A DNA stretch of 35,780 nucleotides from Candidatus Bipolaricaulota bacterium (GTDB taxonomy: Bacteria > Bipolaricaulota > Bipolaricaulia > Bipolaricaulales > Bipolaricaulaceae). Position numbers and translations under genes: made by a program. Below, one piece after another: positions 8,336-19,067 of the stretch (its first letter is position 1; each line of letters begins with the position of its first letter). The DNA lies in contig JAOACA010000010.1 of the NCBI GenBank assembly GCA_026418075.1, positions 1 through 35,780 of the forward strand, read 5' to 3'. The notes below the pieces were generated by a model, which searched no databases, was not told where the DNA came from, and worked only from the letters and a program-made list of their open reading frames with translations.

Positions 8336-9433
8336 ATGCCCCGCACGGTGGCCTTCCTCTTCGACAGCGGGGGCACCGACTGGGTGGGGCGGGCGCGGAC
8401 GGCCGCCGCGCGGGCCCTGGCCCGGCGCCTGGCCGACCACCCCCGGGTGGGGGACGTCGTCGTGGCAGCCGCCGCGCCGGCGGGCTGGCAGGGGGAACCG
8501 GTAATCGTCGAACCCGATCCCCCCGAGGGATGGCACTTCGGGGCCCGGTTCACCGACCTCGTCCGCGCGTACAGTCCGGATCGGCTCCTCTACTTCTCGG
8601 CCGGAAGCGGGTTCCTCCTCTCGGACGCGGCGCTCGACCGCTTGGTCGAGGCCGAGCCCTGCCCCCCTCCGTTTGCCGTCCTGAACAACTTCTACTCCAC
8701 GGACTTCGCCCTCCTCGTCCCCCCGTTCCCCTTGCCCGACCTCGGGCGGGACAACCCGCTGGGGGCGCGGCTGTGGGGGGCGGGGTACGCCTGCTACGAG
8801 CTCCCCCGCTCGTACCAGACCCTGTTCGATATTGACACGCCGGGCGAGCTCCAAATCCTCGCCCTCCACCCCGAGCTTCCCCCGCCCGTGGGGGAGTCCC
8901 TCGCCGGGCTCCCCACCGGCCGGGCGGAAAAGCTCTTGGAGGTTTTGGTGGACCCGGAGCGGGAGCTGGTGCTTCTGGGGCGGGTGGGGGGGCACCTGGC
9001 CCGGGAGCTGGAGACGGGGGCAGCGTGCCGAACGCGGATCCTGTCCGAGGAGCGGGGGATGGAGTCCAGCGGCCGGGCCGAACGGGGGGCGGTGCGGTCC
9101 CTGGTCGGGGCCCTCCTCCACGGCCGAACCCCGGCCGAGCTCGTCGCGCTCCTCGCCCAGTTTGGGGACGCCGTGGTGTGGGACACGCGGGTCCTCATGG
9201 CCCACCTGGGCTTCTGGCCGCCCCCGGCGGAGCGGTTCGCCTCCGACCTCCTCGACCTCGAAGGCGTCCGCCACCCCCTCCTCCGGGAGCTCACCGCGGC
9301 CTGCGCCTCCTCGCCCGTTCCCTTCCTCCTTGGGGGCCACGCCCTCGTCTCCGGGGGGATGTACCTGGCGATCGAGCTCGCCTGGCGGGGGGAGGACCGG
9401 GAGTCCCGGTTCCGGCCGCTGCCCTTCCCTTAG
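8336..9433 (+). CDS. Uncharacterised protein, possibly with a nucleotidyltransferase-like N-terminal half
   Basis: A 365-residue protein that I cannot assign to a family. The first 175 residues look like an alternating alpha/beta domain: a hydrophobic first strand 'TVAFLFDSGG', then a predicted sugar- or nucleotide-type core, ending in 'LFDIDTPGELQIL' (residues 163-175). The D-x-D-T-P-x-(D/E)-L pattern is seen near the end of MobA/CofC-like GT-A nucleotidyltransferases. However, the usual N-terminal GGxSxRMG-type loop is missing, so activity is doubtful. Residues 176-365 are mostly helical, with no recognised motif. There is no signal peptide or membrane helix. It lies 9 bases after rpsR and 9 bases before the GlyA-GcvT fusion, where rplI is usually found. 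The link to folate metabolism is positional only. Confidence 0.75.
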   Translation: MPRTVAFLFDSGGTDWVGRARTAAARALARRLADHPRVGDVVVAAAAPAGWQGEPVIVEPDPPEGWHFGARFTDLVRAYSPDRLLYFSAGSGFLLSDAALDRLVEAEPCPPPFAVLNNFYSTDFALLVPPFPLPDLGRDNPLGARLWGAGYACYELPRSYQTLFDIDTPGELQILALHPELPPPVGESLAGLPTGRAEKLLEVLVDPERELVLLGRVGGHLARELETGAACRTRILSEERGMESSGRAERGAVRSLVGALLHGRTPAELVALLAQFGDAVVWDTRVLMAHLGFWPPPAERFASDLLDLEGVRHPLLRELTAACASSPVPFLLGGHALVSGGMYLAIELAWRGEDRESRFRPLPFP

Positions 9434-9442
9434 GAGAGGACG

Positions 9443-12400
9443 ATGACGAACGAGATGTGGGAGCAGGAGCTTTCCGCGGTCGATCCGGCCCTTGCGGCCC
9501 TGATCCGGTCCGAGGAGGAACGGCAGCGGGACAAGATCATCCTCATCCCGTCCGAGTCCTGGACCCCGCGGCCGGTGCGGGAGGCCCTGGCCTCCGCCTT
9601 CACCTCGATCTACGCCGAGGGGTACCCCCGGGAGGAGCTCCTCCGTCTCCCCGAGGACCGGATCACGGACATCGCCGAGCAGCTTGCCTACTTCCGCCGG
9701 TACAGCGACCGGCGGTTCTACAAGGGGGTGGAGCTCGCCGACCTCGTGGAGGCCCTGGCCTGCCGGCGGGCGGCCGAGGCGTTCGCCACGGAGGACGTGC
9801 GGCCCGAGGACATCTTCGCCAACGTCCAGGCCCTGTCCGGCGCCGCAGCGAACATGGCCATCTACGAGGCCCTCCTCCAGCCCGGGGACACCCTGATGGC
9901 GATGGACCTCTCCCAGGGCGGGCACCTGTCCCACGGGTCCCCGTTCCACCAGTCGGGGCGGAGGTACCGGATGGTCCGGTACGGGGTGGACCCCAAGACG
10001 GAAAAGCTCGACTACGACAAGATCGGGGACCTGGCGCGGGAGAGTCGGCCGAAGATGATCGTCGCTGGGTACACCTCGTACCCCTGGGCCCCGGACTGGA
10101 AGGCGTTTCGGGAGATCGCCTCAGGCTGCGGGGCGTTGCTGCTTGCGGACATCGCCCACACCGCGGGGATGGCCGCGGCGGGGGCGTACCCCACCCCGGT
10201 CGGGTACGCCGACGTGGTCATGTTCACGACCCACAAGACGCTCCTTGGGCCCCGGGGGGCGGTGATCCTGTCCTTCGACCCCGAGATCGCCGCCCGGATC
10301 GACGCCGCGGTGTTCCCCGGGGCCCAGGGGGGCCCCCACGTGAACAAGTGGGCGGGAATCGCCGCCGCGCTCGCCCTCGCCCGCACCGAGGCGTTCCGGG
10401 ACCTCCAGCACCGGATCGTCGGAAACGCCCAGGCCCTCGCCGACGCCCTCGCCCGGCGGGGGCTGCGCCTCGCCTACGGGGGGACGGACACCCACCTCCT
10501 CGTGATCGACCTCCGGGCGATCGCCACGCCCAACGGGGAGCCCCTGATGGGGGAGATCGCGGCCCGGATCCTCGACCTCGTGGGGATCGTGGCCAACAAG
10601 AACACGATCCCCGGGGACCTCTCGGCGGCCGATGCCCGGGGGATCCGGTACGGGACCCCCTGGGTCACCCAGCGGGGGATGGGGAGAGCGGAGATGGAGG
10701 AGATCGCCGAGGTCACCCGCGCGGTTCTCACCGCGATCCGTCCGTTCACCTACCACGGGGTGAGTGGCCCCCTCCCCCGGGGGAAGCTCCCCCTCCCCGT
10801 CCTCGAGGAGGCAAGGAGACGGGTCCAGGAGCTCGCCGCCCGGTTTGGGGGCGCGGAGCCCAAGTCCGCCCGGGCGGAGGTCCCGACCGGGGAGCTCCTC
10901 GTCCGGGGCGGTAGAGCCGGTCACCTCCTCCACGAGGCCGCCACCGCCCCCGTCCTGTCCCTCGACCCCGGCCAGGCCCGGCGGACCCTGTTCCTCACCC
11001 CCGAGGGGGAGCTCCTCGCCGAGGGGATCGTGGGCCGGCTCCCCGATGGCCCGAGCGGGCCCCGGTACGCGGTCCTCGTCCCCCGGCCCCGGGCCCAGGC
11101 CGTGGCCCGGTGGCTCGCCGCCCTCGCCGACGGCTACGTCCTCTTTGACCCCGGGGACCTCCACCGCAAGGTCCAGGGCCCGGCCGTCGTCGAGCCGCTG
11201 GCGGAGAAGGCGACCCTGCGGCTTGACGACGGAACGGAGCTCCGGGTCGGAAGCGGGGGTTCGCACCCGTTTCTCGGGGTCAAGTCCCCCGATGAGGCCC
11301 GCGAGCTTGTGGCCGTGCGGAAGCCCTACTTCGTGGGCTGCGGCCGGTTCTCCCTCCCCGAGGCCAAGGAGCGCTACACGCCCGTCTCCCCGGAGGGAGG
11401 GCTCGCCCGGACGCCCCTGGGGGACTGGCACCGGGGGGCAGGGGCCCGGATGGCCCCGTTCGCCGGGTTCGAGATGCCCCTCTGGTACAGCTCGGCCCTC
11501 GCCGAGCACCGGGCGGTGCGGGAGAAGGCAGGGCTATTTGACCTCGGGCACATGGGGGTGTTGGCGGTCGAGGGCCGGTACGCGGAGAGCTTCCTCAACC
11601 TCGTGACGACCAACTACGCGGGCTGGCTCCGCCCGGGACAGTCCCAGTACGCTTTTCTCCTCGACCCCGAGGGGAGGGTGCTCGACGACCTCCTCGTCTA
11701 CCGGGTCTCCAGGGAGCGGTTCCTCCTCGTCGTCAACGCGGTCAACGCCGGGAAGGACTGGGACTGGCTCCAGGCGGTGAACTCGGGGGGGATCCTCCTC
11801 GACCCCGATCGGCCGTGGGTCGAGCCCGACGGCCCGGTTTCCCTGCGCGACCTCCGCACCGGGCCCGAAGCCCTCGTCGACCTCGCCCTCCAGGGGCCCC
11901 GGTCCCGGGCGATCCTTCTCCCCCTCCTCTCCCGGGCCGACCGGCACCGGCTGGTGGCCCTCCGACGGACGGAGTTCCAGGAACTCGCTCTCGCGGGGGT
12001 CCCGGTCCTCTGCGCCCGGACGGGGTACACCGGGGAGCCGGTGGGGTACGAGCTCCTCGTCCCCGCGTCGGAAGCCCCTCGGGTGTGGGAGGCCCTCCTG
12101 GAGGCGGGGAAGGGCCACGGGGTTCAGCCGGTGGGCCTCGCAGCCCGGGACTCCCTGCGGACCGAGGCCGGCCTCCCCCTCTACGGCCACGAGCTTGGGG
12201 GGGACCTGGGGATCCTCCCCCACGAGGCGGGGTTTGCCCCGTACGTGAAGCTCCACAAGCCGTTCTTCGTCGGCCGAGGGGCGTACAGGCAGGCCCTCGC
12301 CTCCTGGAGCCGGGAAGTGGTGCGGTTCGCGATTCCCCCGGGAGGGCGCCCCGTGCGGGCCGGGGCCCCGGTGGTGGACGGCTCCGGCACCGTCCTGGGA

Positions 12401-12622
12401 ACGGTCACAAGCTGCGTCGTCCTTGAGGAGGGGCAGGTGGGGATGGCCCTCCTCTCCCGGCGGGGGCTTCTCCCGGAGACGCCCCTGGGGTTTGTGCTCG
12501 GGGCAGAGCGGGGGCTGCCCGCGGACCTCGCGCCCGGGGCGCGGCTCCCCCTCGTCCTTTGGGGCCGGGTCCTCCCCCGGTTCCTCCGGAAGGAGCTCCT
12601 CCCGCGGGGCGGGGAGGACTAG
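9443..12622 (+). CDS. glyA: Fusion of serine hydroxymethyltransferase and glycine-cleavage aminomethyltransferase
   Basis: A single 1059-residue frame. Residues 1-465 are GlyA, the PLP enzyme interconverting serine and glycine with tetrahydrofolate: 'LIPSESWTP', 'YAEGYP', 'ADIAHTAGM', and the PLP-lysine motif 'TTHKTLLGPRG' with Lys265. About 28 extra residues sit between 'YAEGYP' and 'RFYKG', where ordinary GlyA has 'GKRYYGG'. Residues 655-1059 are GcvT, the T-protein: 'FAGFEMPLWY', 'LFDLGHMG', 'GRVLDDLLVYRV' with the conserved Asp pair 748-749, 'RTGYTGE', 'GLAARDSLRTEAGLPLYGHEL', and 'KPFFVGRGAY'. Residues 485-650 look like a degenerate GcvT-type segment ('LFLTPEGELLAEGIVGRL', then 'KPYFVGCG'). 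An AGGAGAGG ribosome site precedes the ATG. The stop overlaps the convergent protease gene in CTAG. No frameshift is needed. Confidence 0.93.
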   Translation: MTNEMWEQELSAVDPALAALIRSEEERQRDKIILIPSESWTPRPVREALASAFTSIYAEGYPREELLRLPEDRITDIAEQLAYFRRYSDRRFYKGVELADLVEALACRRAAEAFATEDVRPEDIFANVQALSGAAANMAIYEALLQPGDTLMAMDLSQGGHLSHGSPFHQSGRRYRMVRYGVDPKTEKLDYDKIGDLARESRPKMIVAGYTSYPWAPDWKAFREIASGCGALLLADIAHTAGMAAAGAYPTPVGYADVVMFTTHKTLLGPRGAVILSFDPEIAARIDAAVFPGAQGGPHVNKWAGIAAALALARTEAFRDLQHRIVGNAQALADALARRGLRLAYGGTDTHLLVIDLRAIATPNGEPLMGEIAARILDLVGIVANKNTIPGDLSAADARGIRYGTPWVTQRGMGRAEMEEIAEVTRAVLTAIRPFTYHGVSGPLPRGKLPLPVLEEARRRVQELAARFGGAEPKSARAEVPTGELLVRGGRAGHLLHEAATAPVLSLDPGQARRTLFLTPEGELLAEGIVGRLPDGPSGPRYAVLVPRPRAQAVARWLAALADGYVLFDPGDLHRKVQGPAVVEPLAEKATLRLDDGTELRVGSGGSHPFLGVKSPDEARELVAVRKPYFVGCGRFSLPEAKERYTPVSPEGGLARTPLGDWHRGAGARMAPFAGFEMPLWYSSALAEHRAVREKAGLFDLGHMGVLAVEGRYAESFLNLVTTNYAGWLRPGQSQYAFLLDPEGRVLDDLLVYRVSRERFLLVVNAVNAGKDWDWLQAVNSGGILLDPDRPWVEPDGPVSLRDLRTGPEALVDLALQGPRSRAILLPLLSRADRHRLVALRRTEFQELALAGVPVLCARTGYTGEPVGYELLVPASEAPRVWEALLEAGKGHGVQPVGLAARDSLRTEAGLPLYGHELGGDLGILPHEAGFAPYVKLHKPFFVGRGAYRQALASWSREVVRFAIPPGGRPVRAGAPVVDGSGTVLGTVTSCVVLEEGQVGMALLSRRGLLPETPLGFVLGAERGLPADLAPGARLPLVLWGRVLPRFLRKELLPRGGED

Positions 12623-15015
12623 CCCTCCTCCTCTTCCTCTTGGAGGAGGGAGCGAATTTCCTCCAGCCGGTCGGCCACCCGCCGGAACAGGGTCCCCTCG
12701 GGGTAGTTCCCCTCCGCGTCCGGCTCGCCCGGCGGAAGGCCAAACAGGACCTCCACCCCTTCCTCCACCGTGGAGCAGGCCCAGACGTGGAACCGCCCTT
12801 CGGCCACCGCGGCCACGACCTCCTCGGGGAGCATGAGCTCGTCGGCGTTCCCCGCGGGGATGATCACCCCCTGGGTCCCGTCCAGGCCCAGCTCCCGGCA
12901 GACAAGGAAGTGGCCCTCGATCTTCTCGTTGATCCCCCCCACGGGCTGCAGCCGCCCCTTCTGGTCCACCGCCCCGGTCACCGCAACCCCCTGGCGGGCG
13001 GGCACCCCCGACAGGGCGGAGAGGAGGGCGTAGAGCTCCGCCGCCGAGGCCGAGTCCCCCTCGACCCCGGAGTAGGACTGCTCGAGGGCCAGGCTCGCCC
13101 CGAGGGAGAGGGGCTTCCGCCCCCCAAACTGGGAGGAGAGGTACCCCTTGAGGATCATCACCCCCTTCGTGTGGAGCTTCCCCCCGAGCTCCGCCTCCCG
13201 CTCGATGTCCACGACCCCGCTCTTGGCCGTGTACACGTTCGCCGTGATCCGGGTGGGCTTCCCGAACGAAAAGTCCCCGAGGTCGAACACCGCCAGCCCG
13301 TTGACCTGCCCCACCTTCGCCCCGTGGACGTCGACGATGAGCTTCCCCCGGGCGATCCACTCCCGGACCTTCTCCGCCAGGAGGGAATGGCGGTACCGCC
13401 CTTTGGCGATGGCCTGGCGGACGTGGGCGGCGTCCACCACGGACGCCCCGGCGGAGCGGGCCCAGAAGCTCGCCTCGGCCACCAGGGCCGAGAGGGCCCC
13501 GAACCGCGTGGAGAGCTTCGTCTGATCCGAAGCCAGCTCCGCGGCGTACTCCACCAGCCGCGCCACCCCGGAGGGGGAGAACGGGAGGACCTCCGGGTTC
13601 TCCTCCCGGCAGGCGCGGACGAACCCCGCCAGGGCCCGCTCCCCCTCCTCCGTCCACGGCGTCTCCGTGTCGAAGTCGGCCCGGACCCCAAACAGCTTGC
13701 GGAAGTCCTCGTCGTAGTGGTAGAGGAGGTAGTAGAGGTAGGGCGGCCCCACGAGGACCACCTTCACGTCCAGCGGAACGGGCTCGGGCCGGAGGCCCTC
13801 GGTGGAGGACAGCCCAAGCATCTGGGCCGGGTCCTCGGTCCGGATCTCCCCCGCCTTGAGGGCGGTCTTGAGGGCCTCCCAGGAGAGCGGAAACCGGAGG
13901 AGGTTCGCGGCGTGGAGGACGAGGTAGCCCCCGTTGGCGCGGTGGAGGGCCCCGCCCCGGATCTGGGTGAAGTCCGTCGTCACCGCCCCAAGCTGGAACC
14001 GCCGCTCGATCGTCCCAAACAGGTTCGTGTACGTGGCGTTCCCCTCCACCACCACCGGCGCCCCGGCCGCCCCCGTCCGGTCCACCACCACGTTCACCCG
14101 GTACCGGAGGAACCGATCTCCCTCGGGAAGGGGGAACGGAAGCCCCGGGAGGGCCTTCTTGTTCCCCCCGAAGGCGTCCACGTTCTCCAGAATGTCGGCC
14201 TGCACGTCGTCCAAGAAACCTTGCACGCGCGCTAGCCCGGCGTACTTGGCCCGCAGCGCCTCCAGCCGGGGCGCGAGGAGGACCTCCACCGCCTCCCGGG
14301 TGATCCGCCGCTGGACCTCCCCCCAGGCCTCGTCGAGGCGGGCCAGGCGCCCGAACGCGTCCCGGACGAGGGCCTGGAGCTCCTCTTGTCTCCGGAGGAT
14401 CGCCGCCCGCTCCTCTTCCGGCAGGGCCCCGTACTCCTCCTGGGAGTACGGGGTCCCGTCCCCCTTGAGGGGGATCGTGTGGATCCCAAGCGGCGTCCGC
14501 TGGAGGGCGAACCCCAGTTCCTCCGCCCGCCGCTCCAACCGGCGGAACTCCTCCTCCCGCTCCTGGGAGACCCGCTCCCGCTCCCGCTTCTCCCGGGCCT
14601 TGAACTCCTCGGACTCGAGGACCCGGGGCACCTCCTGGGCGAGGAACTCCACCAGCCGGTCCATCTCCCCCTTGAACTCCCGGCCCTTCCCCGGGGGAAG
14701 GAGGAGGTACCGGGGGACGTGGGGGACGCGGAAGTTGTGGACGTAGACGAGGTCCGGGGGCACAGGCCGGGTCGAGGAGACCTCGGCGAGGAGCCGGGAC
14801 ACGGCCGAGGTCTTCCCCAACCCCGGCTCCCCCGCCACGTACAGGTTGTACCGGTGCTGGGGATCGCGGATCCCCAAGCCCAGGCGAAGGGCCTCGAGGG
14901 CCCGCTCCTGGCCCACGATGTCCCGAAGCGGAGGGAGCTCGTCGGTGGTGGAGAAGGTGAAGACACCGGGATCGCAGGTTCGCCGGAGCCGCGCGGGAGG
15001 AACTTCGTAAGCCAT
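12619..15015 (-). CDS. Lon-family AAA+ protease (LonB/TTC1975-like)
   Basis: A 798-residue cytoplasmic ATP-dependent protease. Walker A is 'GEPGLGKT' (62-69). A long charged helical insertion (about 105-265) looks like a coiled coil. Next come 'GALHRANGGYLVL' (about 355-367) and an AAA lid. The C-terminal Lon peptidase domain has 'VEGDSASAAEL' with catalytic Ser655, and 'GGINEKIEG' with Lys698; this 43-residue Ser-Lys spacing equals that of classical Lon. The acidic tail is EEEEEG. It lacks the Lon N-terminal substrate domain, matching the AAA_32/LonB-like group rather than LonA. The ATG at 15015 is chosen because the upstream extension would run across the divergent gene. No ribosome site is visible, and a TATGAT box sits 9 bases upstream. 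Confidence 0.93.
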   Translation of the reverse strand: MAYEVPPARLRRTCDPGVFTFSTTDELPPLRDIVGQERALEALRLGLGIRDPQHRYNLYVAGEPGLGKTSAVSRLLAEVSSTRPVPPDLVYVHNFRVPHVPRYLLLPPGKGREFKGEMDRLVEFLAQEVPRVLESEEFKAREKRERERVSQEREEEFRRLERRAEELGFALQRTPLGIHTIPLKGDGTPYSQEEYGALPEEERAAILRRQEELQALVRDAFGRLARLDEAWGEVQRRITREAVEVLLAPRLEALRAKYAGLARVQGFLDDVQADILENVDAFGGNKKALPGLPFPLPEGDRFLRYRVNVVVDRTGAAGAPVVVEGNATYTNLFGTIERRFQLGAVTTDFTQIRGGALHRANGGYLVLHAANLLRFPLSWEALKTALKAGEIRTEDPAQMLGLSSTEGLRPEPVPLDVKVVLVGPPYLYYLLYHYDEDFRKLFGVRADFDTETPWTEEGERALAGFVRACREENPEVLPFSPSGVARLVEYAAELASDQTKLSTRFGALSALVAEASFWARSAGASVVDAAHVRQAIAKGRYRHSLLAEKVREWIARGKLIVDVHGAKVGQVNGLAVFDLGDFSFGKPTRITANVYTAKSGVVDIEREAELGGKLHTKGVMILKGYLSSQFGGRKPLSLGASLALEQSYSGVEGDSASAAELYALLSALSGVPARQGVAVTGAVDQKGRLQPVGGINEKIEGHFLVCRELGLDGTQGVIIPAGNADELMLPEEVVAAVAEGRFHVWACSTVEEGVEVLFGLPPGEPDAEGNYPEGTLFRRVADRLEEIRSLLQEEEEEG

Positions 15016-15023
15016 GGGTTCCG

Positions 15024-15053
15024 TATCATATCCGGCGATGAAGTTCGTCTCCA
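15024..15053. promoter_or_regulatory. Overlapping divergent -10 boxes between the protease and phospholipase D-like genes
   Basis: The two start codons are 22 bases apart. The plus strand has TATCAT (15024-15029), 8 bases before the ATG at 15038. The minus strand has TATGAT (15030-15025), 9 bases before the ATG at 15015, with TGGAGA (15053-15048) at 17-base spacing as -35. Both transcripts would start almost at the initiation codon. The plus-strand -35 is poor. Confidence 0.45.
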
Positions 15054-16090
15054 TTCTGGTCTGTCTCTTCTCGGCGGTGGGCCTGGGGATCCCCGTGGTC
15101 CCCTTGGGGACCACGCCGGAGGGGCGGACGTACCTCGGGTTCGTCCCTGGGCTCCTGGCCCGGGCCGAGCGGGAGATCGTAGCTGCCCTCTCAGATCTTC
15201 GGCTCTACGGAGGGGACGGGGCCACGGGGGACCTCGTTGCGGCCCTTGTTTCCGCCGCGGGGCGGGGGGTCCGCGTTCGGGTGCTCGTGGAGCTCCGGAG
15301 GGAGGGCCCCCTCCCCGAGCAGGAGGCGGCCGTCCGCTACCTGGAGGAGCGGGGCGTCGGGGTGAAGTGGGACAGCCCGGACGTGACCCTCCACGCAAAG
15401 TTCCTCGTCGTGGACCGGCGGTGGGTCGTGGTGGGCTCAACCCATTGGACCGCCTCCGCCCTCACCCGGAGCGTGCAAGCGGACCTCGCAATCGAGTCCC
15501 GGGAGCTCGGGGCGGCGTTCGGGGCGTTCTTCGACCTCCTGTGGGAAGGAAAGCTCAAGGTGAACCCCAGGCTTCCCCCGGAGCCGTGGCCCCGGCCGAC
15601 GATCGTCCCCCTCCTCGAGTTCCCCGGAAGCGGCCTCCACGCGGCGCTTATTCCCGCCCTCCTCCGCGGGGCGAAGGCGTCCGTGGACCTCCTCGTCTAC
15701 CGCCTGGCCTACTACCCCGCGTACGCCGACAGCCCCGCGAACCGCGTGGTGGACGAGCTCTGCCGGGCAGCGGCGCGGGGGGTGAGGGTCCGGGTCCTCC
15801 TCGAGGGGGGCGAGGAGTTCCCCGATCTTGGAGGGGACAACCGGATCGCGGCGGCGTACCTCGCCGCCTGCGGGGTGGAGGTCCGGCTCGACCCGCCCGG
15901 GACCACCCTCCACGGGAAGGTCCTCCTCGTCGACGGCCAGGACGTCGTCGTGACGTCCGCGAACGTGTCCTACGCCTCGCTCGTCCAGAACGTCGAGGCG
16001 GGGGTGGCCCTCCTCGGGGCCCGGGAGCTCGGGTTCCTCCTCCGAGGCTGGTTCGACCTGCGGTGGGGGGAGGGGCGGCCGCTCCGCTAG
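15038..16090 (+). CDS. Secreted phospholipase D-like protein with two HKD motifs
   Basis: A 350-residue member of the PLD superfamily, which cleaves or transfers phosphodiesters through a two-His site. The N-terminus 'MKFVSILVCLFSAVGLGIP' is a hydrophobic signal sequence or anchor, so the protein acts outside the cytoplasm. Both half-sites are intact: 'LHAKFLVVDRRWVVVGSTHW' (about residues 113-132) and 'LHGKVLLVDGQDVVVTSANVS' split over about 287-307, each with H-x-K-x4-D and a following Gly/Ser or Ser/Asn. A two-copy chain forms one active site. The substrate cannot be told; phospholipid or nucleic acid are both possible. A start at 15014 would add eight residues, but 15038 places the signal peptide at the terminus. 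The stop overlaps the convergent gene in CTAG. Confidence 0.9.
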   Translation: MKFVSILVCLFSAVGLGIPVVPLGTTPEGRTYLGFVPGLLARAEREIVAALSDLRLYGGDGATGDLVAALVSAAGRGVRVRVLVELRREGPLPEQEAAVRYLEERGVGVKWDSPDVTLHAKFLVVDRRWVVVGSTHWTASALTRSVQADLAIESRELGAAFGAFFDLLWEGKLKVNPRLPPEPWPRPTIVPLLEFPGSGLHAALIPALLRGAKASVDLLVYRLAYYPAYADSPANRVVDELCRAAARGVRVRVLLEGGEEFPDLGGDNRIAAAYLAACGVEVRLDPPGTTLHGKVLLVDGQDVVVTSANVSYASLVQNVEAGVALLGARELGFLLRGWFDLRWGEGRPLR

Positions 16091-16734
16091 TAGGTCACCA
16101 CGCCTGCGATCCGGGCCTCCACCCGCCGGCCCCCGCTGTAGGCGCTGGCCGTCCCCGAGAACCGGATCGCGGCCCCCGCCGCGGGCGGATAGAGGGCGTA
16201 CACGACCCGGACGCTCTTCCCCGGCTCAAGGGAGGTCGACCACAGGACCTCCAGCCCGTCGCCCCGCCGGGGGGCGTAGCCCCCGCCCTCGTCGAGCACC
16301 GAGACGACCCACCCCGGAGGGACGGTCTCCACAATCCCCGGAGCGACGAGGGGCACTTTGGCCTGGAGGACCACGGTGACCTCGAGGACCCCCCCGTTCC
16401 AGCGGGCGGTCCGAAACGCCCCAAGCTGGGGATGGGCCGTCACCGCCCCCACGATCTTCGACACCACCTTCCCGCCCTGGACGACCTCCACGGCCACCTC
16501 CCAGTAGCCGGCGGGGGCCTTCCAGGTGGCGGTGGGGACGTTCGTGGTGAGGTCCGGCCGGCCGTCCCCGTTGAAATCCCACCGGAACTGCGCCCCTGCC
16601 GGGGCCCCCACGACCTGGAACGCGACCTCCTCCCCAGGATTGGGAATCGCTGTGGACGAGACCAGGGCCGGCCCTTGGGCGAAGGTGAAGCACCCGCAGG
16701 CCAGAAGCCCCAATGCTACGAGCACGGATCGCAT
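16087..16734 (-). CDS. Secreted protein with PKD-like segment and 'PPGW' module
   Basis: A 215-residue exported protein. The signal peptide is 'MRSVLVALGLLACGCFTFAQ'; cleavage after Ala-Gln is plausible, and the Cys13 context (LLAC) is a weak lipobox. Residues 30-75 are PKD-like ('FRWDFNGDGRPDL'). The C-terminal half carries 'VETVPPGWVVSVLDEGGGY', then 'VLWSTSLEPGKSVRVVYALYPP', the same pattern found twice in the neighbouring upstream gene. This resembles the NEW3/CARDB kind of Ig-like domain, but I cannot assign it firmly. AAGGAGG precedes the ATG. The two genes are neighbours in one direction, separated by a strong hairpin. No enzyme motif is visible, so a surface or binding role is inferred. 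Confidence 0.85.
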   Translation of the reverse strand: MRSVLVALGLLACGCFTFAQGPALVSSTAIPNPGEEVAFQVVGAPAGAQFRWDFNGDGRPDLTTNVPTATWKAPAGYWEVAVEVVQGGKVVSKIVGAVTAHPQLGAFRTARWNGGVLEVTVVLQAKVPLVAPGIVETVPPGWVVSVLDEGGGYAPRRGDGLEVLWSTSLEPGKSVRVVYALYPPAAGAAIRFSGTASAYSGGRRVEARIAGVVTY

Positions 16735-16816: not shown

Positions 16817-19027
16817 CTAGCGGTCGCAGATCCCCGGGGTCCGCCCGGGCAGCGCCTCGCAGATCGGGGTCCCCGTGAGCCACAGGGCGATGATGAGCTT
16901 CATCGTCTCGTAGTCGATGATCCCCGGCGCGCAGGCCCGCGGGACCTTCGTCCCCTCGAGCCAGAACGCGATCGCCCGCTGGACCTGGGGGAACGTGATC
17001 TTGTCCGACAGCGACAGATCGATCGTGTCCCGGGCCACGTCCCACCGGGAGATGGCCACGACCACGTTCAAGCAGTCGGTGAGGTCGACCCGGTTCTGGC
17101 CCGTGACCTCGACCTCGAGGCAGGGGTGACCGCTGTCGGCCCGCCCGGCGATGAGCGCCCGGGAGAGGACCTTGCACGGATCGGGCGGCGTGGACTCCAC
17201 CGTCACCGTGGGCGGGACCTCGACCTGGTAGATGATCGTCTTCGTCTGGCCGGCCTTGAGGAGGCCGGTGTAGGCCCACTGATCGACCCCCGGCTTGTAG
17301 GTGAACCCGTCGTTCTGGATCGGGGTCACCCGCCACCCGACGGGGAGGTCCTCATCCAGGCCCACCCCGTACACGTCGCGGTCGGTCGTGATCTCCACCT
17401 TGACCGTGAACTTGTTCCCGACCACGTTTCCGGCCGAGTCGTAGAACCCAATGACCACGCCCTCGCAGGGGATCGGGGTGATGATCCACCGCCGGGCCTG
17501 GAGCTTGGGGGTTGGCATCGTCGGAAGCGGCTGGTCGATCGAGGTGCAGGAGGCGGCGTAGGCGGCGATGAGCTTCAGGGTGTGGAGGTCGATCCGCTCC
17601 CCACAGGTCTTCGCGACCGGCCGGTCGGTCCGCCAGAGCTCCGTCGCCCGGGCGAGCTGCTCGGCCGTGATCGCCTCCGACAGCCGCAGGTCGACCTTGT
17701 CCTCCTCCCCGGGGTAGGTGGCCGGCACAAGGTGGGCCACCGCCTCGAGGATCGACAGGCAGTCGTTCACGAGGAAGCAGGATTCCCCGGCGACCTCGAA
17801 CGCAAACTCCGGCACCTTCGCCTGGAACGTCCCGGTGAGGCAGAACTGCTGGGGAAGCCGGATCGAGGCGAGGAGCTCCACCTTGGGAACCGTCACGTCG
17901 TAGATGATGATCCGCTCGGTTCCGGCCTTGATGGGTTCCATGAACACCCACTGGACCTCGGGCCGGTGGAAGATGGCCCCGCCGTTCTGGACCGGGGTGA
18001 TCTCCCAGCCCACGGGCGGGTTCTCATCCAGGCCCGCCCCCACGAGGTCCTGGTCGGTGGTGATCCGGACCTGGACCCGGAACGTGTACCCGGGGAGGGC
18101 CGTGGTCGTGGAGATCGAGCGGACCGCGGTCGCGGTCAGGGCGGAGACGGTGAGCGGAAGCCGGAACGTCCCCTCCATCCCGGCGTTGTCGACCACGGTG
18201 AGGCGGACGGTGTAGGAGCCCCCGGCGAGGTAGGCGTACTGAACCCGGGGCTCCGTGCTCTCCAGGTCCACCACCCCGTCCCCGTTGAAGTCCCACTTGT
18301 AGCGGACGATCCGCCCGTCGGGGTCCGTGCTCCCCGAGGCGTCGAACGTGATCTGCTGGCGGGCCCGCGGGGCCGCGGGGGTCACCACGAGCCGGGCCGT
18401 CGGGGGCTGGTTCTTCATCCCCTCGATCACGATCGTCTCCGTCGTGTTGAGCTCAAGCCTGGTCGGAACGTTGATGTTCCCCGACTTGAACACGATCTTC
18501 CCAATCCCAGAGAACGGCCCGGGGACGAGGGTCAGCTTGAACTCCTCGGGAAGGGGCCCCAGGACCCCGCCGTCGGTGCTGTTGGCGCCCCACGTCCACA
18601 GGATTTGGAACTCGTCGTTGGCGCGGATGTACTCGTCGTTGAGCTCGGGGAGGAAAATCGCGAGGAACGGGATCCCTGTGTCGTCCTTCACCACGAAGTC
18701 GGCCCCGGCAGGAACTCCCCGCAGGGTGAACCGGACGTTTCCGCTTGCCCCGGTGCCGCCCTTGTTCAGGATGAAGAAGAGGTACAGGTTCTGGGTCGTG
18801 GGCTCCCGGTACAGGAACAGGACCATGTTTCCCGTCTCGGCGAGTTCGTTCCCGCTCCGAGACTGCCCGCTATCGTAGGCGTAGAACTCCGTGGCCGGTT
18901 TCGCCCCGGCCAGGGGCGGAACGGCGGCCTTCACCGCTCCCTGGGTCACCTGGAAGTAGCCCTGGGCGCTCAAGGGCAGGGCGACAGCCAGGGAAAGCAC
19001 GAACAGTAGGCTGGTCTTCCTCACCAT
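16817..19027 (-). CDS. Secreted multidomain protein: PKD domain plus two copies of a 'PVGW'-helical module
   Basis: A 736-residue exported protein. Numbering starts at the ATG at 19027, which has AGGAGG 6 bases upstream; another ATG and a TTG lie 3 and 6 bases earlier and are possible starts. Signal peptide: 'KTSLLFVLSLAVALPLSAQG'. Residues about 25-200 are a beta-rich region of unknown kind. About 205-295 is a PKD domain ('FDASGSTDPDG', 'YKWDFNGDG', 'GGSYTVRLTVVD'). Two repeats follow (about 311-493 and 536-720). Each has a beta part ('ITTDQDLVGAGLDENPPVGW' and 'ITTDRDVYGVGLDEDLPVGW', closing 'IIIYDVTVP'/'IIYQVEVP') and a helical part ('DLRLSEAITAEQLARATELW'-like, with 'IDLHTLKLIAAY'/'IDYETMKLIIAL'). 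The Cys residues are mostly in the repeats. No catalytic motif is visible; a cell-surface role is inferred. Confidence 0.88.
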   Translation of the reverse strand: MVRKTSLLFVLSLAVALPLSAQGYFQVTQGAVKAAVPPLAGAKPATEFYAYDSGQSRSGNELAETGNMVLFLYREPTTQNLYLFFILNKGGTGASGNVRFTLRGVPAGADFVVKDDTGIPFLAIFLPELNDEYIRANDEFQILWTWGANSTDGGVLGPLPEEFKLTLVPGPFSGIGKIVFKSGNINVPTRLELNTTETIVIEGMKNQPPTARLVVTPAAPRARQQITFDASGSTDPDGRIVRYKWDFNGDGVVDLESTEPRVQYAYLAGGSYTVRLTVVDNAGMEGTFRLPLTVSALTATAVRSISTTTALPGYTFRVQVRITTDQDLVGAGLDENPPVGWEITPVQNGGAIFHRPEVQWVFMEPIKAGTERIIIYDVTVPKVELLASIRLPQQFCLTGTFQAKVPEFAFEVAGESCFLVNDCLSILEAVAHLVPATYPGEEDKVDLRLSEAITAEQLARATELWRTDRPVAKTCGERIDLHTLKLIAAYAASCTSIDQPLPTMPTPKLQARRWIITPIPCEGVVIGFYDSAGNVVGNKFTVKVEITTDRDVYGVGLDEDLPVGWRVTPIQNDGFTYKPGVDQWAYTGLLKAGQTKTIIYQVEVPPTVTVESTPPDPCKVLSRALIAGRADSGHPCLEVEVTGQNRVDLTDCLNVVVAISRWDVARDTIDLSLSDKITFPQVQRAIAFWLEGTKVPRACAPGIIDYETMKLIIALWLTGTPICEALPGRTPGICDR
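16868..18097 (-). repeat. Tandem protein-level duplication of a two-part module
   Basis: Copy 1 spans about 18097-17549 and copy 2 about 17422-16868. The copies match clearly at the protein level ('ITTDxDxxGxGLDExxPVGWxxTPxQNxG', then 'DLxLSxxIT' and 'KLIxA'). They have diverged in DNA, so the duplication is old. Confidence 0.85.
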
Positions 19028-19067
19028 CATCAACCTCCTTACCCCAATGCTACTCAGGACAGTCTAG

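Follow-up and report, generated by a model that had tools for sequence, protein, structure and literature searches.

The stretch of DNA analysed here (the window, 35,780 nucleotides from a Bipolaricaulota genome) carries on its forward strand a gene of 1059 codons with an ATG start (9443-12622), which encodes a serine hydroxymethyltransferase (SHMT) joined, through a middle domain resembling part of a T-protein, to a glycine-cleavage T-protein (GcvT, aminomethyltransferase). Translation of this interval yields a single open frame whose sole stop is terminal, as the original prediction had claimed, and its AGGAG-type ribosome site overlaps the stop codon of the upstream ORF. The SHMT domain spans residues 1 to about 466 (9443-10840) and includes the PLP Schiff-base lysine, Lys265, within a TTHKT motif (10235-10237). 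It is followed by the middle, pseudo-T domain at residues 484 to about 633 (10892-11341), in which an alignment of 33 fusions delineates a signature at residues 557-580 (WLAALADGYVLFDPGDLHRKVQGP; 11111-11182), and by the GcvT domain at residues 653-1059 (11399-12619) with its Asp748-Asp749 pair (11684-11689). Pfam searches, which had been proposed as a check, return SHMT for the front, GCV_T for the back and GCV_T also for the excised middle. An AlphaFold model of the full-length protein has a mean pLDDT of 88.6 and a pTM of 0.86, and among the best 50 Foldseek matches listed for it there are SHMTs only.

The upstream ORF is a conserved gene of 365 aa (8336-9433, forward strand) without an assigned family, for which searches of the PDB, Pfam and NCBIfam gave no convincing relatives; its DIDTPGEL and NNFYSTDF stretches may resemble MobA/CofC-like nucleotidyltransferases. 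It is paired with the fusion in metagenome-assembled genomes (MAGs) of three phyla, its relatives being likewise placed in Bipolaricaulota, in Chloroflexota (L053 and L032) and in an Actinomycetes MAG (L058). On the other side, a LonB/LonC-like AAA+ protease frame (12619-15114, reverse strand) is convergent with the fusion gene and overlaps its stop codon by four bases. Further along lie a phospholipase-D-fold protein whose DrmC-like and cardiolipin-synthase-like matches all score under the curated cut-offs (15014-16090, forward strand), and PKD-domain and weak FG-GAP proteins that are likely surface-exposed or secreted (16817-19033 and 16087-16734, both reverse strand).

Distribution of the three-part gene

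Because the window comes from an incomplete MAG (1.25 Mb, 85.6% complete), an assembly or reading-frame artefact had to be considered. We read all relatives from assembled DNA, leaving annotation aside, and found the uninterrupted fusion as one full-length match in 35 Bipolaricaulota genomes, including the single-contig genomes G005 and G010, which therefore excludes a stop or frameshift splitting the frame and an assembly error. With the same fusion recurring in dozens of independent assemblies, several of them single-contig, we rejected the artefact explanation, the probability of which we regard as negligible.

The genome survey suggested in the original prediction found the same architecture in Bipolaricaulota, in Chloroflexota and in MAGs of further phyla, amounting to more than 100 genomes spread over six or more bacterial phyla. 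Within Bipolaricaulota, the gene occurs in four families (f1, f2, f4 and f5), whereas in five others (f3, f6, f7, f8 and f9) the frames are of SHMT size and stand alone; it is fixed in several families, mostly as the only SHMT and T-protein, and among the 35 genomes that gave a full-length match a second complete SHMT is present in G027 alone. Approximately 78 of 400 sampled Chloroflexota genomes possess the fusion, a piece of it or a split form, a count obtained from 80 genomes at E <= 1e-95 minus two stand-alone SHMTs. Other carriers are labelled Spirochaetota, Thermodesulfobacteriota, Myxococcota, Bdellovibrionota and Actinomycetota. Nearly all named records with the fusion are MAGs, and single odd placements may thus be binning errors, which the bulk pattern cannot be. 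One contig labelled Thermotoga sp. (L025, DYGJ01000036.1) carries a fusion that groups inside Bipolaricaulota and probably belongs to a mislabelled MAG.

The SHMT and T-protein domains

At the N-terminus, residues 83-423 match Pfam SHMT (PF00464) with an E-value of 6.9e-113 and 377.7 bits against a cut-off of 27. SHMT is the best family match of the domain, the curated model NF000586 scoring 409 bits against a cut-off of 335, and Foldseek aligns the AlphaFold model to solved SHMTs with TM (target) values of 0.94-0.95. The complete PLP site predicted at the front of the protein is present: Lys265 aligns with the THKT motif of T. thermophilus SHMT (2dkj) and is invariant in the 33 aligned fusions, as are Asp236, His239, Arg402, Tyr57, Glu59 and Tyr93, such that the PLP lysine, the PLP Asp/His, the carboxylate Arg and the active-site Tyr/Glu of SHMT are all accounted for. 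It is also the best conserved of the three domains, with a mean column identity of 0.73 across these fusions compared to 0.64 for the T part and 0.47 for the middle.

Stand-alone SHMT (GlyA; PF00464) shares its fold, its PLP lysine and most of its substrate residues with the fused domain. By contrast, the fused SHMTs form a distinct clade, are about 27 residues longer between YAEGYP and RFYKG, carry IPSES where the canonical enzyme has IASEN, and replace the PLP-stacking His of VQPHSG with Leu (Leu131 in the window), the latter in 54 of 54 fused sequences with a readable motif. This His is usual in SHMT though perhaps not defining. The two substitutions suggest that the kinetics or specificity of the fused SHMT may differ from those of the canonical enzyme. 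Taken further and combined with the separate clade, they could mean that the N-terminal domain is an SHMT relative preferring another aldehyde or amino acid, fused to the T-protein for one-carbon supply. We consider this quite improbable in light of the NF000586 score, the seven invariant active-site residues and the fact that the domain is usually the genome's only SHMT. Separately, second, stand-alone SHMTs are encoded in two Bipolaricaulaceae genomes (L125 and L126; G014 and G027); these also have Leu in place of the PLP-stacking His, together with IPSEN, and constitute a separate long-branched clade.

At the C-terminus, Pfam GCV_T (PF01571) matches residues 661-931 with an E-value of 2.2e-82 and 276.6 bits, and the domain aligns with solved T-proteins of B. 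subtilis (1yx2, 187 bits), T. maritima and E. coli. The GcvT motifs that had been described as complete within residues 655-1059 are indeed intact, including DD748-749, of which Asp749 aligns with D96 of the T. maritima T-protein, and RTGYTGE. Asp748, Asp749, Gly861, Glu865 and Arg902 are invariant in the 33 aligned fusions, where the catalytic Asp, RTGYTGE and GxxARDxxR motifs are invariant or nearly so; among 61 C-terminal domains, 60 have DD and all have [RHS][TRA]GY[TS]GE. The fusion scores below the NCBIfam gcvT cut-offs (216.5 versus 235.9 for TIGR00528 and 280.5 versus 300 for NF001567), which are naming thresholds rather than a functional test and point to a divergent T-protein. While the catalytic motifs are those of stand-alone GcvT (PF01571), the fused T differs from it in sitting behind an SHMT and a second T-like domain and in an insertion of about 20 residues ahead of the ALQGP strand, where the gap is typically 44 instead of 24.

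The genomic setting of the fusion speaks to the same functions. In the window's genome, where the fusion is the only SHMT- or GcvT-like locus, gcvH, gcvPA and gcvPB lie side by side (G000:C19) with no gcvT in the cluster, and GCV_T has no match besides the two domains of the fusion protein, which should therefore be the genome's T-protein. Elsewhere the three genes adjoin the fusion itself (L043, L034, L042 and L054, the last from Desulfarculaceae); the hosts of such arrangements are Anaerolineae, an unclassified bacterium, Spirochaetota and Desulfarculaceae, and one Anaerolineae MAG has the gene order fusion-gcvH-gcvPA-gcvPB. Glycine riboswitch aptamers precede two fusion clusters (L032:4624-4724 and L043:517-596); a search of the window for a riboswitch found none. 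Given the gcv clusters and riboswitches, the assignment of the protein to glycine metabolism does not hang on what its domains are called. Judged from these sequence data, the fusion is very probably bifunctional, with an SHMT and a T-protein on one chain.

The middle domain and its origin

The excised middle matches GCV_T and no other Pfam family, at 27-29 bits against a cut-off of 25.6, and a GCV_T match was obtained for all 28 middle domains aligned; a profile built from these 28 retrieves B. subtilis T-protein 1yx2 as its first PDB match (E 8e-9). In agreement with this, an AlphaFold2 model of the middle (mean pLDDT 86.6) matches 1yx2 in Foldseek with an E-value of 2.6e-6, and the leading matches all belong to the T superfamily (T-proteins, IBA57, YgfZ, sarcosine oxidase, DMGDH and LigM). 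The structural similarity to the GcvT fold on which the original prediction depended is thus found, and by its sequence and modelled fold the middle is T-derived. Its limits, given before as residues 485-650, are better placed at about 484-633, an interval that covers only the front half of a T-protein, the half that binds folate (profile positions ~48-154 of 255), together with a KPYFVG segment. Because the T-fold proteins of Fe-S maintenance, YgfZ and IBA57, share this fold by Foldseek, we considered whether the middle is one of them. KPYFVG resembles the YgfZ signature, but the Cys-bearing signature itself is absent from the middle. We rejected this assignment since the best sequence match is GcvT, the insertion of the C-terminal T is shared and KPYFVG is missing from the split forms described below.

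The middle does not qualify as an active T-protein when judged by the catalytic Asp and RTGYTGE. The Asp pair is changed from DD to AE in the window and replaced in most members, varying elsewhere, and is retained in the middles of L032, L033, L143, L144 and L058, while the RTGYTGE part is absent from compact middles and altered in long ones. These losses, along with the lowest mean conservation of the three domains and a stretch between SHMT and T that ranges from about 440 to about 195 residues among relatives, could indicate a decaying relic or a spacer without a function of its own. Against such a reading stands the signature WLxxL-S/A-DGYxxFDxxDxxxKxxGP, which is nearly invariant across several phyla: G564, F568, K576, G579 and P580 are found in 33 of 33 fusions, and W557, D563, Y565, D569 and D572 in 31-32. 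Since the middle is, in addition, confidently modelled as folded and stays with SHMT when the gene is split, we argue that it has not simply decayed and deem the relic explanation improbable. The original description of a decayed GcvT copy is accordingly half right, in that descent from a T-protein holds and the catalytic residues are gone, yet the signature is kept, and kept on the SHMT.

Relatives with longer middles inform the origin of this domain. Whereas the Bipolaricaulota middle has shrunk to about 150 residues and no longer has the catalytic Asp, some relatives have an almost complete middle T-domain: that of L143 gives one 152-bit match to positions 2-278 of a 374-position stand-alone T profile, and those of L058 and L144 cover much of this profile, compared to about 50 positions, weakly matched, for the window. 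The gap between a conserved Trp and the QGP strand is 23-25 residues in stand-alone T-proteins, one longer case being a fusion cut by a contig end, but mostly 42-47 in fused C-terminal T domains and 43-44 in both long middles in which it is measurable. Long middles and fused T domains also have a similar ...LFD/LID...GPV.(V/L).DL pattern. An alternative alignment of the middle's KVQGP with the ALQGP strand of the T was rejected because L143, L058 and L144 carry both GP motifs. The insertion of about 20 residues common to the middle and the fused T and absent from stand-alone T-proteins therefore suggests that the fused T itself was duplicated. A tree agrees, though weakly given its long branches: the middles cluster together at the point where fused T-proteins diverge from stand-alone ones. 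Overall, the middle likely arose by internal duplication of the fused T, consistent with the earlier suggestion that the fusion gained a second GcvT, and recruitment from an unrelated T is less likely.

In six Chloroflexota genomes (L153-L158), the gene is split, with SHMT and middle in one frame and T in another. The SHMT-middle frame (591-639 aa) ends just past the signature (...LSDGYVIFDD...PGPVAV) and lacks the KPYFVG segment entirely; the T gene lies directly downstream in four genomes and on another contig in two (L153 and L154). In an SHMT tree, the split forms nest among fused Chloroflexota sequences (SH-aLRT 98), so that fission of the fusion is their likely origin, although an exclusive fused clade is also compatible with the data (AU p 0.17). 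Fused and split SHMTs together form one clade apart from all stand-alone SHMTs in our limited sample (SH-aLRT 100), and a single origin followed by transfer and loss would be the simplest account of the fusion.

A proposed function for the fused enzymes

Both SHMT and T-protein use tetrahydrofolate (THF) and methylene-THF, and their reactions are established family biochemistry. In the fusion, the C-terminal T would transfer the aminomethyl group from H-protein to THF, releasing ammonia and 5,10-methylene-THF, and the N-terminal SHMT would combine this methylene-THF with a second glycine to give serine and regenerate THF, or both would run in reverse. Local cycling of THF would thereby couple 2 glycine <-> serine + CO2 + NH3 + 2 electrons. 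As each site on the one chain makes what the other consumes, whichever way the reactions run, folate could act as a captive carrier. The middle, a duplicated, shortened and non-catalytic T domain that would functionally belong to the SHMT, most likely docks the T domain, or H-protein, against it; its conservation and its tie to SHMT are the best hint of such a role. We infer the two activities, the local transfer of folate and the scaffold role, and on balance we favor, with some reserve, a bifunctional SHMT/T-protein of the glycine cleavage system in which folate cycles locally and the middle serves as scaffold. True channelling of methylene-THF between the sites we hold to be somewhat less likely than not.

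A tentative extension of this model is that the T copy duplicated inside the fusion became an adaptor binding SHMT to T or H-protein, thereby building a glycine/serine metabolon on one chain with internal transfer of folate, and that the adaptor remains on SHMT and works in trans after the gene is split. The split genes also indicate that covalent linkage is dispensable and, with T unlinked in two of the six genomes and with most bacteria carrying SHMT and T as separate enzymes, they lend weight to a bifunctional fusion without channelling, in which joining the domains serves no more than matched expression and co-localisation, and folate passes by way of the bulk solution. Balanced expression leaves unexplained why a split SHMT should still carry a conserved middle, and we find this alternative somewhat unlikely. 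The middle might, beyond a pure scaffold, hold folate or dock H-protein and so relay THF between active sites, as could be expected from its correspondence, in Pfam and Foldseek, to the half of the T fold that binds folate and from the five middles that keep DD; with DD replaced in the window and most members, and RTGYTGE missing or changed, we judge such a relay unlikely.

There is precedent for several elements of this arrangement. Sarcosine oxidase alpha, dimethylglycine oxidase/dehydrogenase and TMAO demethylase likewise fuse a folate-binding T-fold domain to an enzyme producing one-carbon units, and in PDB searches each T part of the fusion retrieves sarcosine oxidase, dimethylglycine oxidase and TMAO demethylase. 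The partners of the T-fold domain in this group are flavin- or metal-dependent oxidases or demethylases, whereas here the partner is SHMT, and we know of no pseudo-T middle in any of these enzymes. Formiminotransferase-cyclodeaminase and DHFR-thymidylate synthase unite two consecutive folate enzymes per chain, and their channelling has been studied experimentally; the domains of the fusion are unrelated to theirs and its channelling is conjectural by comparison. In searches of an open-access full-text library, we found no description of an SHMT-GcvT fusion; nor did searches there for genes of glycine cleavage or SHMT from Bipolaricaulota, Acetothermia or Anaerolineae give any paper with such a fusion in its title or abstract. 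An Acetothermia genome paper mentions the glycine cleavage system (PMC6092417), and its main text does not contain the words 'fusion', 'fused' or 'serine hydroxymethyltransferase'; glyA, gcvT and hydroxymethyltransferase are absent from the Biga Bipolaricaulota paper (PMC9992828), and the Acetothermum paper contains none of these terms (PMC3267732). The gene thus appears to combine familiar enzymes in a conserved layout that is new and includes a domain put to another use, one undescribed within that library.

Whether methylene-THF is handed over directly between glycine cleavage and SHMT is a question for photorespiration, for acetogen metabolism and for the engineered reductive glycine pathway, and a natural single chain with both enzymes makes it testable on one purified protein, with the split relatives as controls. 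The series of middles, from nearly complete to half-size, offers a clear case of an enzyme copy becoming a non-catalytic part, and where such a gene is annotated from one end, one of its two functions would be overlooked.
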